Source: an uncultured Sunxiuqinia sp. | GTDB lineage: Bacteria; Bacteroidota; Bacteroidia; Bacteroidales; Prolixibacteraceae | Length of the DNA stretch: 64,000 nt | Direction: 5' to 3' | Assembly (NCBI RefSeq): GCF_947495665.1 | Contig: NZ_CANLZV010000001.1 | Location: 248,001 to 312,000, forward strand | Shown here: piece after piece, positions 34,089 through 37,504 of the stretch | Position numbering within the stretch: position 1 is the first letter of the stretch | How the letters are laid out: each line of letters begins with the position of its first letter | Notes under the pieces: generated by a model | What the model was told of the DNA's origin: nothing | The model's input: only the letters and a program-made list of their open reading frames with translations | The model's database searches: none | Program-made: the position numbers and the translations under genes

Positions 34089-35000
34089 TTAAAATAATCC
34101 ATCAATAGAAAGATAGCGCTCCCCGGTATCATAGGAAAAAGTGAGAATTTTTGATCCTTTAGGAAGCTCCTGGATTTTCTTAGCCACAGCAGCCAGTGAA
34201 GCACCTGATGAAATGCCTACAAACAAGCCTTCTTCTTTCGCTGCACGTTGGGCGTAATCAAAGGCTTCCTCTTTCGAAACCTGAATGGTTCCATCCAGCA
34301 GTGGGGTTTTCAGATTCTCAGGAATAAAGCCAGCACCTATTCCCTGAATGGGGTGGGGCCCGGGACTGCCACCGCTAATAACCGGCGATTGTTCAGGCTC
34401 AACGGCAAAGGTTTTTAACTCCGGAAAGCGTGTTTTTAAAACTTCACTTACCCCAGAAATATGGCCACCCGTGCCTACCCCGGTAATCAGGTAGTCAAAC
34501 CCCTCAGGAAAGTCGCTGAGGATTTCCTGAGCCGTATGGTCGCGGTGAGCTGCAATATTGGCTTCGTTGTCAAATTGCGAAGGAATCCAGGAGTTCGATT
34601 GTTCTCCAGCAAGTTCCTCAGCTTTGGCAATGGCCCCTTTCATACCCTTTTCTTTGGGGGTAAGCACCAACTCAGCGCCATAGGCAGTTAAGATCCGACG
34701 GCGTTCCAAAGACATCGATTCAGGCATAACCAGAATGAGTTTGTATTTTTTTACAGCCGCAACCAAGGCAAGTCCAATCCCCGTGTTTCCCGAGGTTGGT
34801 TCAATAATCAAGGAGTCTGGGTTTAAGATGCCTTTACTTTCGGCTTCTTCCACCATCTTTAAAGCAATCCGGTCTTTAATGCTACCTCCGGGATTGGTGC
34901 GTTCCAGCTTGACATAGACTTCGTAGTCTTCCCGATACAGGTTGTTGATGCGAACTAAAGGTGTGTTTCCAATGGTTTCCAGAATGTTGTTGAATTTCAT
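34089..35000 (-). CDS. cysK: cysteine synthase (O-acetylserine sulfhydrylase)
   Basis: A 303-residue PLP enzyme of fold type II that makes cysteine from O-acetylserine and sulfide. The PLP lysine is in [14 protein letters not shown], the substrate loop is [17 protein letters not shown], the phosphate loop [17 protein letters not shown], and [13 protein letters not shown] is the family signature. Start ATG 35000 ([16 protein letters not shown]) is the CysK standard. Upstream lies a terminator at 35028-35060 preceded by a Cys-rich leader reading frame, so expression is likely controlled by attenuation in response to cysteine supply. Confidence 0.96.
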
Positions 35001-35027: not shown

Positions 35028-35060
35028 CAAAAAAAGGCCTTCCAAATTCATGGAAGGCCT
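35028..35060 (-). terminator. attenuator terminator in the cysK leader
   Basis: On the minus strand AGGCCTTCCA (35060-35051), loop TGAATT, TGGAAGGCCT (35044-35035), then a T7 run. It sits 28 bp before the cysK ATG and after the leader frame, so it can stop transcription before cysK. Confidence 0.9.
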
Positions 35061-35094
35061 GCTCATATCTTTATTAAAAAGAATTTATTGCATT

Positions 35095-35142
35095 TTAAAC
35101 ATACCTTCCCCGTGTTACTCTGTAGCAACAGCACATACACAT
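35095..35142 (-). CDS. Cys-rich leader peptide of cysK
   Basis: A 15-codon frame ATG to TAA upstream of cysK encodes MCMCCCYRVTRGRYV: Cys at positions 2, 4, 5 and 6. It is read in the cysK direction and ends 34 nt before the terminator stem. The arms are placed as in amino-acid attenuators: CCTTCCC (35153-35147) just before the ATG can pair with GGGGAAGG (35111-35104, codons 11-13), which can instead pair with CCTTCC (35057-35052), the 5' arm of the terminator. A ribosome delayed at the Cys codons would cover the first arm and let the second block the terminator; a ribosome that reaches the stop would cover the second arm and allow termination. No expression evidence. Confidence 0.75.
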   Translation of the reverse strand: MCMCCCYRVTRGRYV

Positions 35143-35157
35143 ATTTGGGAAGGAAAA
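35104..35157 (-). promoter_or_regulatory. competing arms (1 and 2) of the cysK attenuator
   Basis: Arm 1 at 35157-35147 (TTTTCCTTCCC) and arm 2 at 35111-35104 (GGGGAAGG) form a 7-bp protector stem; arm 2 with 35057-35052 forms a 6-bp antiterminator. No canonical TAnnTTTG box is seen immediately upstream, so the promoter is not located. Confidence 0.65.
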
Positions 35158-35238
35158 GTTCATCAGAAATGATCTGTTTTTATTTTGATGCAACAATATT
35201 AATTAAAAAAAACGAATAAAATACAATTTAGTCTGATT

Positions 35239-36573
35239 TTAATTCTTATAAAAAAGCCATTTAAAGATTTCTTTAAAGTTCACTTTTTTGCCATACATCA
35301 AAATGCCGGTTCGGTAAATTTTCCCTGCTACCCAGATTGTGCCATAAATGGAGGCGACCAGAATGCTCATTGAAAGCAGCAGTTCCCACATCGGAACGCC
35401 ATAGGGTACACGCACCATCATTATGATTGGTGAAGTGAACGGAATCATGGATGCCCAGAAGGCCAGTGCACCTTCGGGGTTTTTCACTACCGGAAATAAA
35501 ATGATGATGGAGAAAATAAGCGGAAGGGTAACCGGAAGCATCAGTTGCTGGGCTTCTTCTTCATGATCTACAGCGGCACCCACGGCACCCATAAGGGACG
35601 AGTACATCAGGAAGCCCCCCAGAAAGTAAAATACAAACGAGCCAAGAATCAGCGGAATGTTCAGGTTGCCGATTAAATCAATAATGTTGAGGACGGCATT
35701 TTCCTGTGCTGCTTGTTGGAACTGTGGATTAGCCGCCATCATGCTTTGCGACTGCTGGAGCATTTCAGCCTGGTCGGGTGCAAGGAAGACCTGCAGACCG
35801 GTAACGATCAAAAACATCAGTACAACCCAGAAAACAAGTTGCGTTAAGCCAACCAGACCAATGCCTACAATTTTCCCGAACATCAGTTGGGTGGGCTTTA
35901 CCGAGGAAATGATTACCTCTACAATACGGCTTGATTTTTCTTCCATCACCCCACGCATCACCATGGCGCCATAAAAGAAGACAAACATGTAGATAATAAA
36001 TCCGGCACCATAGCCAACAGCCATGGCAATTTCGGTAGAGCTTTTCACTGCTTCGCCTTTTGCGTCCACCTTCATGGTTTCCAGTTCAATATGTGTGCGT
36101 GCGGCAGCTAGTTTTTCTTCCAAATCCGGAATGCCGGATTCGTCGATGATCAGGGCTTTTTTATCTTCTTCAATCAGGTTTTTTAGCTTGTTGCTAATCA
36201 TATTTTTGATATCGAAGGTCACCTGCTTGTCGGACAATAAACTGGCACGACTGGTCGTCACAATATCTTCAGGAATGTGTAAAACTGCATAGTACGCACT
36301 CGATTTGATGTCTTGCTGAATACGTTCAAATTCCGTTTTCGGAATAAAGGTAAAGCGAGTAAACTCTGTGTCTTCCCAGCGATTTTCAAACTGCTGGCTG
36401 GCATCATAAACCCCGATTGTGCGCTCTTCCTCGTCGTCCTGCATGGCCAGCCAGGCCGGCAAAACGGTAATTCCACCAAATAAAAATGGGACCAGCAAGG
36501 TTAAAATGATAAAGGATTTTTTCCGGACCCGGGTGATGTATTCGCGTTTTAAGATTATAAGTGATTTATGCAT
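35239..36573 (-). CDS. ABC-2 type transporter permease (NatB-like)
   Basis: A 444-residue inner-membrane permease. One helix near the N-terminus (KKSFIILTLLVPFLFGGITV) is followed by a large extracytoplasmic domain (about 40-170) and five to six helices toward the C-terminus (GAGFIIYMFVFFYGAMVMRG, IGLVGLTQLVFWVVLMFLIV, FVFYFLGGFLMYSSLMGAVG, LPLIFSIIILFPVV), the ABC2_membrane_3/NatB layout. Start at 36573 (MHKSLIILKREYITR) overlaps the ATPase stop by 8 bp. With the ATPase it makes an exporter; NatAB relatives export Na+ but the substrate here is unknown. Confidence 0.85.
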   Translation of the reverse strand: MHKSLIILKREYITRVRKKSFIILTLLVPFLFGGITVLPAWLAMQDDEEERTIGVYDASQQFENRWEDTEFTRFTFIPKTEFERIQQDIKSSAYYAVLHIPEDIVTTSRASLLSDKQVTFDIKNMISNKLKNLIEEDKKALIIDESGIPDLEEKLAAARTHIELETMKVDAKGEAVKSSTEIAMAVGYGAGFIIYMFVFFYGAMVMRGVMEEKSSRIVEVIISSVKPTQLMFGKIVGIGLVGLTQLVFWVVLMFLIVTGLQVFLAPDQAEMLQQSQSMMAANPQFQQAAQENAVLNIIDLIGNLNIPLILGSFVFYFLGGFLMYSSLMGAVGAAVDHEEEAQQLMLPVTLPLIFSIIILFPVVKNPEGALAFWASMIPFTSPIIMMVRVPYGVPMWELLLSMSILVASIYGTIWVAGKIYRTGILMYGKKVNFKEIFKWLFYKN

Positions 36574-37504
36574 GAGCTTGTTTTTTGGGGTTTGCTTGTT
36601 CAACAACTTGAATAAAAACTTCATTCATGGAAGGAATGACTTCGCGGAAGGAGCGGATGTCCATTTTTTCCATCAAATTGCGGAGGAGGGCATTGGTTGG
36701 AATCTCATTGTTCAACTGAAACTTTACCCGCTGGACATGTCCCTTCAATTCATAATCGATGAGCTGAAAACCATTGCGACTAAACTCGGCGGTAACATCA
36801 TGCGCGACCGTGGTTTCAATTTCAAAAACATCCTGCTTATATTGCTCTTTAATGGTGTCAATGGGGCCATCCAGTATCTTTTTCGACTGGTTAATCAGGG
36901 CAATGTGATCACAAATTTCTTCGACCGAGGCCATGTTGTGGGTTGAGAAAATAATGGTTGCTCCATTTTCTTTCAGCTTAAGAATTTCATTTTTCAGCAG
37001 GTTGGCATTGATGGGGTCAAAACCACTGAAAGGCTCATCAAAAATCAGAAGTTTGGGTTGGTGAACGACCGTGGTAATAAACTGAACCTTTTGCTGCATC
37101 CCTTTCGAAAGCTCTTCCACCTTTTTGTTCCACCAGGGTTGAATCTCAAATTTTTCAAACCAGTACCTCAGCCCTTTTAATGCATCGTGGCGGCTTAAGC
37201 CTTTCAGTTGAGCCAGGTACAGCGCTTGTTCGCCTACTTTCATTTTTTTATAAAGTCCGCGTTCTTCGGGGAGGTAGCCAATGTGTTGAATATCGGTGGA
37301 CCTGAGTTGACGTCCAAACAGCTGAACTTCGCCTTCGTCTGGAGCTGTAATCTGGTTGATGATGCGGATCAGGGTGGTTTTTCCTGCTCCGTTAGGCCCC
37401 AGCAGCCCAAAAATACTTTGTTCGCCAACTTCAATGCTGACTTTATCCAAAGCCCGGTGTCCGGCATAGTCTTTTACGACATTGGTCGCTTTGAAGAATT
37501 CCAT
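36566..37504 (-). CDS. ABC transporter ATP-binding protein
   Basis: A 312-residue ATPase: Walker A GPNGAGKTT (about 37-45), signature LSKGMQQKVQFI, Walker B LLIFDEPFSGFDP and switch His in IIFSTHNM. The C-terminal extension (about 220-312, DVFEIETTVAHD and FREVIPSMNEVFIQVVEQ) matches the DUF4162 domain of NatA-like exporters. It drives the permease encoded directly downstream, with which it overlaps. Confidence 0.93.
   Translation of the reverse strand: MEFFKATNVVKDYAGHRALDKVSIEVGEQSIFGLLGPNGAGKTTLIRIINQITAPDEGEVQLFGRQLRSTDIQHIGYLPEERGLYKKMKVGEQALYLAQLKGLSRHDALKGLRYWFEKFEIQPWWNKKVEELSKGMQQKVQFITTVVHQPKLLIFDEPFSGFDPINANLLKNEILKLKENGATIIFSTHNMASVEEICDHIALINQSKKILDGPIDTIKEQYKQDVFEIETTVAHDVTAEFSRNGFQLIDYELKGHVQRVKFQLNNEIPTNALLRNLMEKMDIRSFREVIPSMNEVFIQVVEQANPKKQAHA

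Follow-up and report, generated by a model that had tools for sequence, protein, structure and literature searches.

The cysteine synthase gene cysK of this uncultured Sunxiuqinia is preceded by a short Cys-rich reading frame and an intrinsic terminator, together with RNA arms whose alternative pairings would decide whether that terminator forms, and we consider it very likely that this leader is a cysteine-responsive, ribosome-mediated transcription attenuator. The parts of the element, their conservation in relatives, the covariation of the arms and the recurrence of the same design at three loci of the genome are established by comparing sequences. Cysteine attenuation itself is known; what is new here is the phylum (Sunxiuqinia is placed in the Prolixibacteraceae, Marinilabiliales, Bacteroidota), the target genes, the set of three loci and, possibly, a dual sensing of cysteine and methionine.

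Anatomy of the leader before cysK

The window, by which we mean the whole 64-kb stretch of DNA that was analysed, carries cysK and its leader on the minus strand. In the direction of transcription the features are:

35239..36624, minus strand: upstream neighbour, a membrane protein gene, outside the attenuator
35191..35198, minus strand: candidate Bacteroidota-type -7 box, TATTGTTG, matching TAnnTTTG at 5 of 6 letters, 27 nt ahead of the leader ATG
35095..35163, minus strand: leader frame, 22 codons plus stop, MNFSFPNMCMCCCYRVTRGRYV, from sequence, rule and alignment
35147..35153, minus strand: arm 1, CCTTCCC, leader codons 4-6
35125..35139, minus strand: control codons Cys9, Cys11, Cys12 and Cys13 (TGT, TGC, TGT, TGC), singly at 35139-35137, 35133-35131, 35130-35128 and 35127-35125
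35104..35111, minus strand: arm 2, GGGGAAGG, leader codons 18-20, partner of either arm 1 or arm 3
35051..35060, minus strand: arm 3, the 5' half of the terminator stem, AGGCCTTCCA
35035..35044, minus strand: arm 4, the 3' half of the terminator stem, TGGAAGGCCT
35029..35035, minus strand: T7 tract of the terminator, overlapping the stem by its first T
34089..35000, minus strand: cysK, cysteine synthase A, 303 aa, by NCBIfam model; the gene presumed to be controlled

The product of cysK scores 405.6 bits against the NCBIfam model for cysteine synthase A (cut-off 350.95). The whole terminator stem runs from 35060 to 35035, and the T7 tract ends 28 nt ahead of the cysK ATG at 35000. Within the leader, Met8 stands directly ahead of Cys9 and Met10 lies between the control Cys codons. 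The upstream neighbour is presumably an ABC transporter permease; 43 of the 52 distinct cysK leaders described below have its C-terminal motif encoded directly ahead of them, and the other nine have no permease-like neighbour within 400 nt. Inspection by eye also shows, directly behind the cysK stop (about 34077-34017, minus strand), a T tract and a long inverted repeat, probably the gene's own terminator.

A sequence-only reading of this DNA had placed the Cys codons, the arms, the terminator and the T7 tract on the minus strand, and each was found where that reading put it. It had also taken the leader peptide to be 15 residues long, starting at 35142, and arm 1 to lie ahead of its ATG. The Cys-rich frame stands, as do the sequence and place of arm 1, but the start does not. 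In a 52-row leader alignment the outer ATG at 35163 is nearly invariant (at least 90%), whereas just 33 of the 52 leaders, with starts as chosen by script, have Met as residue 8, the place of the inner ATG at 35142. The leader thus very probably begins at 35163 and has 22 codons, not 15, which brings arm 1 inside the frame as codons 4-6.

The leader RNA of the window folds with 1:2 and 3:4 paired at -46.4 kcal/mol (z -4.97), a stability that 0 of 200 shuffles equalled. So stable a fold would also suit a metabolite riboswitch or a T-box RNA in which the run of Cys codons was incidental. Such an RNA is barely credible here, given that Rfam at gathering scores has no match in the leader region, T-box and SAM riboswitch included, and that the conserved columns of the 52-row alignment are the frame start, the Cys codons, arm 2 and the terminator. 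Applied to both strands of the window, the leader rule set out below makes a single call, the cysK leader; a plain terminator scan by itself found four terminators against 3.5 expected, which is not significant.

Conservation and alternative pairing

The rule called a leader where an ATG frame of 8-60 codons held at least three Cys in eight and a terminator lay 5-90 nt past its stop. It was applied to the best 30 cysK loci from 61 genomes (the window's own included) and to the best 80 of 245 in a named genome collection; 109 of these 110 loci have an upstream region, L062 beginning inside the gene. Leaders were called at 63 of the 109, and 52 of them are distinct, the 11 that occur twice mostly representing one species present in both genome sets. 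The controls gave no call, either in 1260 dinucleotide shuffles of the 63 positive regions or on the 109 reverse strands. At the positive loci the leader stop lies 23-39 nt from the terminator and cysK identity is always at least 73%; in 36 of the 52 distinct leaders the Cys cluster ends at codon 13. Three same-genus loci (L010, L013 and L014) have leaders identical to those of Sunxiuqinia indica, S. dokdonensis and S. elliptica. Over both strands of the best 80 of the 245 named loci (1.01 Mb) the rule gave 43 calls, of which 39 are before cysK and four elsewhere, one of the latter (L097) preceding a serine acetyltransferase-like gene that is followed by cysK. The intrinsic terminator proposed between leader and cysK is thus both present in the window and kept in relatives.

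What of the 46 loci, among the 109, at which the rule found no leader? Forty have no terminator by script and six have one. The cysK identity is below 78% in 38 of the 40, and two terminator-less misses, L101 and L108, have only 35 and 127 nt of upstream DNA. As for the six, L052 and L057 have a leader with only two Cys followed by a terminator, L115 has a terminator by script, and in L016, L043 and L045 the terminator comes directly after the stop of the upstream gene, the whole leader being gone. A terminator kept without the Cys frame had been named beforehand as an outcome that would speak against attenuation, and it is seen in these last three loci. They are what would be expected of a constitutive terminator that insulates cysK, or that ends the gene of a small RNA or Cys-rich micropeptide, with no sensing at all; terminators are abundant among the covariance-model matches across the order, and the same upstream gene stands before 43 of the 52 distinct leaders. 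Nine of the 52 lack that gene within 400 nt, however, the frame, Cys run, spacing and arms occur together with the terminator, and the same layout is found before three sulfur-related loci with otherwise different peptides. We regard a terminator without sensing as highly improbable.

The surroundings of cysK vary among the loci. Most leader-bearing relatives (43 of 52) have cysK behind an ABC permease-like gene, unlike the outgroups L037, L038, L077, L084, L097 and L112, where a serine acetyltransferase-like gene, recognised by eye, lies just before cysK; the frames ahead of cysK in L084 and L097 match PF00132. Directly before the cysK of another outgroup locus (L092, positions 596-1039) is an Rrf2-family regulator (PF02082, 114 bits), so that control there may lie with a protein and not with a leader. 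Such cysK genes were also met in MAGs titled Chitinophaga, Odoribacter, Chlorobiota, Ignavibacteriaceae, Cyanobacteria, Gammaproteobacteria, Archangium or Spirochaetes (L047, L057, L076, L086, L090, L104, L106 and L115), eight contigs that are possibly binning or naming errors.

An alignment of related cysK upstream regions had been suggested as a check on the Cys codons and the three arms, and its outcome was largely favourable. The Cys frame, terminator and arms are kept together at the 63 of 109 loci (52 distinct) and compensatory changes are present, but the 1:2 pairing does not enter the consensus: RNAalifold, given the 52-row alignment, returned the terminator only, with double changes at nine of the ten pairs of its stem. 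The arms were then examined by duplex energies and by named pairs. Over the 52 leaders, the mean duplex energy of 2:3 is -12.1 kcal/mol, against -6.4 ± 0.3 for shuffled arms and -10.7 ± 0.2 for partners from other species, and that of 1:2 is -13.6 kcal/mol, against -9.6 ± 0.4 and -10.8 ± 0.4. The observed energy was reached by 0 of 100 controls in each of the four comparisons; 1:2 and 2:3 both pair better within species than across species. One leader with two Cys clusters (L030) had its arms misjudged by the script (2:3 only -2.9).

The alignment cells point the same way. The 2:3 pairing is formed in 86.5% of them, and 19 cells changed on both sides are still paired, against 6.5 ± 1.9 in shuffles (0 of 500 as high); the number of pairs with double changes, three against 2.5 in shuffles (238 of 500), is not above expectation. 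For 1:2 the corresponding figures are 60.9% paired and 38 doubly changed cells against 22.9 ± 3.5 (0 of 500), the number of pair types again not exceeding that in shuffles (87 of 500). On these comparisons the cysK leaders contain a predicted, mutually exclusive antiterminator, 2:3.

The sequence TAnnTTTG is the -7 consensus of Bacteroidota, and 63 of 80 leaders have a candidate box with at least five of its six letters within the 70 nt that precede their ATG; shuffles give 22.9 ± 4.8. The gap from box to ATG is 12 nt or less in 10 of the 63 leaders with a good box, and in some relatives it is 0-7 nt, so that these leaders are possibly near leaderless. This would accord with translational attenuation of the mycobacterial kind, in which the Cys frame governs access to the cysK start and not termination; mycobacterial poly-Cys uORFs with a translational role do exist, according to the passages available of two papers (PMC9031893, PMC13236596). 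For cysK we consider it very unlikely, because at all 63 positive loci an intrinsic terminator (itself part of the rule) stands between leader and gene, with a 5' arm that pairs with arm 2, and because neither of the pairings examined, 1:2 and 2:3, involves the cysK start.

Further leaders in the genome, the family and the order

A covariance model built from the cysK leaders was searched against the window genome and found two more Cys leaders with terminators (E 3.4e-6 and 9.5e-6). The first (L162) lies 260 nt before a gene for the cysG N-terminal domain, followed by cysJ, cysI and hemD; family models support these assignments (CysJ 748 bits over 668, CysI 790 over 757, the CysG domain 89.9 over 62.3 and HEM4 46.4 over 27.5). 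An OsmC-like gene follows the second (L163) at a distance of 18 nt. Across the family, leaders were called by the strict rule at 17 of the 30 best-matching sulfite reductase loci (31 of 60 genomes had a match) and at 10 of 16 osmC loci (14 of 60 genomes), and none on the reverse strands of either. The window genome's own sulfite reductase leader (L194), with three Cys in nine codons, misses the strict rule; it was added by a relaxed rule and is included in the set-wise comparisons of arms, promoter boxes, ribosome masks and Met.

The layout is common to all three sulfur-related loci; the peptides otherwise differ. Arm 2 of each set finds its strongest partner in that set's arm 3 (-10.5 for cysK, -11.5 for sulfite reductase and -13.8 for osmC, other combinations lying between -7.4 and -10.5), and the cysK arm 3 pairs equally well with the osmC arm 2 (-10.5 each). 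Of the 10 leader-bearing osmC loci, three (L226, L229 and L230) have a cysK above the TIGR01139 cut-off as the following gene, and two (L227 and L232) have a PLP enzyme of Cys/Met metabolism (PF01053) further on, which hints at a sulfur role of the OsmC-like protein.

No Cys leader adjoins the second cysK, the cysE or the two PAPS-reductase-family genes of the genome. A rule call about 1 kb before the second cysK (L003) falls inside the coding frame of another gene and was read as chance. Elsewhere in the genome, outside the window, a leader containing HIGHHH and followed by a terminator precedes hisG (L128, G000:C7:231649-231786), and a Leu/Ile-rich leader with a terminator precedes leuA (L132, G000:C18:68857-69008); other amino-acid attenuators thus seem to be present.

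An order-wide count with the covariance model (213 of 295 genomes) is not taken as evidence, as many of the matches inspected are terminators without a Cys frame; the 35 loci inspected comprise six from the window's own genome and 29 from the order-wide search. Cys-rich leaders do occur in other families of the order. They precede nine serine acetyltransferase genes (L134, L135, L138, L139, L144, L146, L147, L151 and L159), all of which match TIGR01172 below its cut-off and six of which pass the EpsC model NF041874, as well as cysK-family PLP genes (L140 and L148) and an OsmC gene (L137). By the strict rule, a survey of the stretch immediately before cysE, which would miss leaders before earlier genes of an operon, gave leaders at 5 of 61 places in the order (61 of 63), at 3 of 60 in the class and at 0 of 30 in the phylum (each a part of the matches), most of the surveyed cysE genes scoring below the cysE model cut-off. 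Leaders before cysE are thus rare, and the element appears scattered outside the family.

Leaders rich in other residues were also noticed in other families of the order. Those ahead of asnA (L141 and L156) are rich in Asn, that of trpB (L152) contains Trp, that of ilvE (L160) Ile, and those of leuA (L157) and ilvD (L161) Leu/Ile; a further ilvD leader (L149) has few Leu, and an Arg leader stands before a GNAT-like gene (L153). The genes of L152, L156, L160 and L161 were checked by family search, and those of L141, L149, L153 and L157 were assigned by eye.

Ribosome position, the proposed switch and known systems

Each leader was folded to just past arm 3, with the ribosome represented as a 30-nt mask. 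The window RNA is then expected to hold 1.4 pairs of 2:3 when free of ribosomes, 7.0 when a ribosome occupies the Cys codons and 0.0 when it has reached the stop; for 1:2 the same three states give 13.0, 3.0 and 0.5 pairs. Codon by codon, 2:3 stands at 7.8-7.9 for A-sites 3-12, at 4.5 for Cys13 and below 0.5 from codon 18 on; any stall at codons 3-12 would thus free 2:3, so that structure alone does not single out Cys. The stalled state exceeds the completed one by more than one 2:3 pair in 44 of 52 leaders before cysK, 17 of 18 before sulfite reductase and 6 of 10 before osmC. The predicted contrast is therefore clear for the first two sets and weaker for osmC, where the leader of the window genome itself barely changes between the three states (9.8, 9.9, 7.9). 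The stalled state exceeds the ribosome-free state in only 24 of 52 cysK, 13 sulfite reductase and 3 of 10 osmC leaders, so that termination by default, when nothing is translated, is not evident throughout.

The leaders of all three sets contain Met beside Cys. Of the non-Cys residues that surround the Cys cluster, 21% are Met in cysK leaders, 44% in sulfite reductase leaders and 36% in osmC leaders; Met stands directly before Cys in 40 of 52, 18 of 18 and 10 of 10, and in-frame ATG number 93, 73 and 32, compared with 10, 14 and 1 for the two remaining frames combined, although these counts are phylogenetically non-independent, the three leaders may share one ancestor, and some inner ATG could be the true leader start. 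Fourteen cysE leaders from elsewhere are not Met-rich (8.8%, with Met before Cys in 1 of 14). In the simulated window RNA a ribosome at Met8 or Met10 frees 2:3 as well as one at Cys, so that the leaders may count both sulfur amino acids, and the three sets may sense Cys and Met together. These same features, with the two osmC loci that continue into a Cys/Met metabolism enzyme, would also be expected if the attenuator were real and its signal a general slow-down of translation, or a shortage of Met, more than of Cys. We think this unlikely, given that runs of Cys define every leader set and are shared by the 14 cysE leaders that are poor in Met.

The classical attenuation reading of the cysK leader is supported by these comparisons, and from them we infer the promoter, the stalling of the ribosome, the read-through and cysteine as the signal. 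A promoter upstream would give a short leader RNA. With charged tRNA-Cys present, the ribosome would run to the stop and cover arm 2, the 3:4 terminator would form and cysK would stay off; with no ribosome, 1:2 would form, leaving 3:4 free, and termination would again follow. A ribosome waiting at the Cys codons would keep arm 1 off arm 2, which would then take arm 3, and the 2:3 pairing would block the terminator and allow cysK to be transcribed. Methionine may tune the response besides cysteine. This cysK switch would be one of at least three in the genome, the others standing before cysG-cysJ-cysI-hemD and the OsmC-like gene.

If attenuation operates in this way, these Bacteroidota have a form of cysteine control that needs no regulator protein, and sulfite reduction, cysteine synthesis and the OsmC-like protein are joined in one starvation response. 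The signature of a Cys run, a stop, about 30 nt and a terminator would offer a cheap way of locating sulfur genes, and the mixture of Met and Cys lets one ask if a single leader sums two amino acids made from the same sulfide. A broader proposal, which we put forward tentatively and with some doubt, is that sulfur assimilation in the Prolixibacteraceae and scattered other Bacteroidota is under attenuators that count Cys and Met in one leader, that the OsmC-like protein belongs, so far unrecognised, to the response to cysteine starvation, and that such leaders locate further sulfur genes.

How does the cysK leader compare with known systems? The trp, his and leu attenuators of enterobacteria have a leader peptide with control codons and the pairings 1:2, 2:3 and 3:4. 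The cysK leader is like them in that its stop codon is placed so that a ribosome there would cover arm 2, and differs in the amino acid, in the position of the control codons between arms 1 and 2 and in its candidate promoter of Bacteroidota type. The poly-Cys uORFs of mycobacteria, reported by Canestrari and colleagues in 2020, are said to be leaderless; the leader ATG in the window lies 27 nt from the candidate promoter box. Both are Cys-run frames before cys genes, and the mycobacterial ones are described as cysteine-responsive in the passages available. In mycobacteria and relatives the Cys-run leaders before cys operons have no conserved terminator hairpin, as far as the accessible text goes (PMC1262725), whereas the cysK leader has a conserved intrinsic terminator and a competing predicted antiterminator. 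Passages of two papers cite the mycobacterial leaders as cysteine-responsive attenuation (PMC9031893, PMC13236596) and, in one place, as translation attenuation (PMC13236596).

The sequence-only reading knew of no described case in Bacteroidota, and the open-licence literature, in its titles, abstract starts and passages (supplements aside), likewise yielded no report of a cysteine leader there. For Flavobacterium psychrophilum, of the same phylum, the passages available see 'strong clues' that leader peptides attenuate amino-acid operons, and name conserved 5' elements at hisG and pheA among others; cysK is absent from the main text and section 19 names no cysteine gene, supplementary tables aside (PMC9723704). 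Short ORFs of B. thetaiotaomicron are called 'reminiscent of leader peptides' in the available part of another paper (PMC7366714). The metL leader of S. lividans, before metNIQ, mixes Met and Cys residues as the cysK leader does; it belongs to an actinobacterium, has no typical terminator and is read as Met-dependent in the passages available (PMC8079986).

Finally, passages of a further paper describe the uORFC-8-2 motif before cysS of Rhodobacterales as a predicted Cys attenuator with a terminator (PMC8632094). Its Cys codons lie in the first stem, whereas those of the cysK leader lie mostly in the loop between arms 1 and 2, and its setting is Alphaproteobacteria with cysS as target, compared here with cysteine synthesis, sulfite reduction and an OsmC-like gene (PMC8632094). 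The two share tandem Cys codons, a terminal intrinsic terminator and a predicted ribosome-mediated transcription attenuation (PMC8632094).
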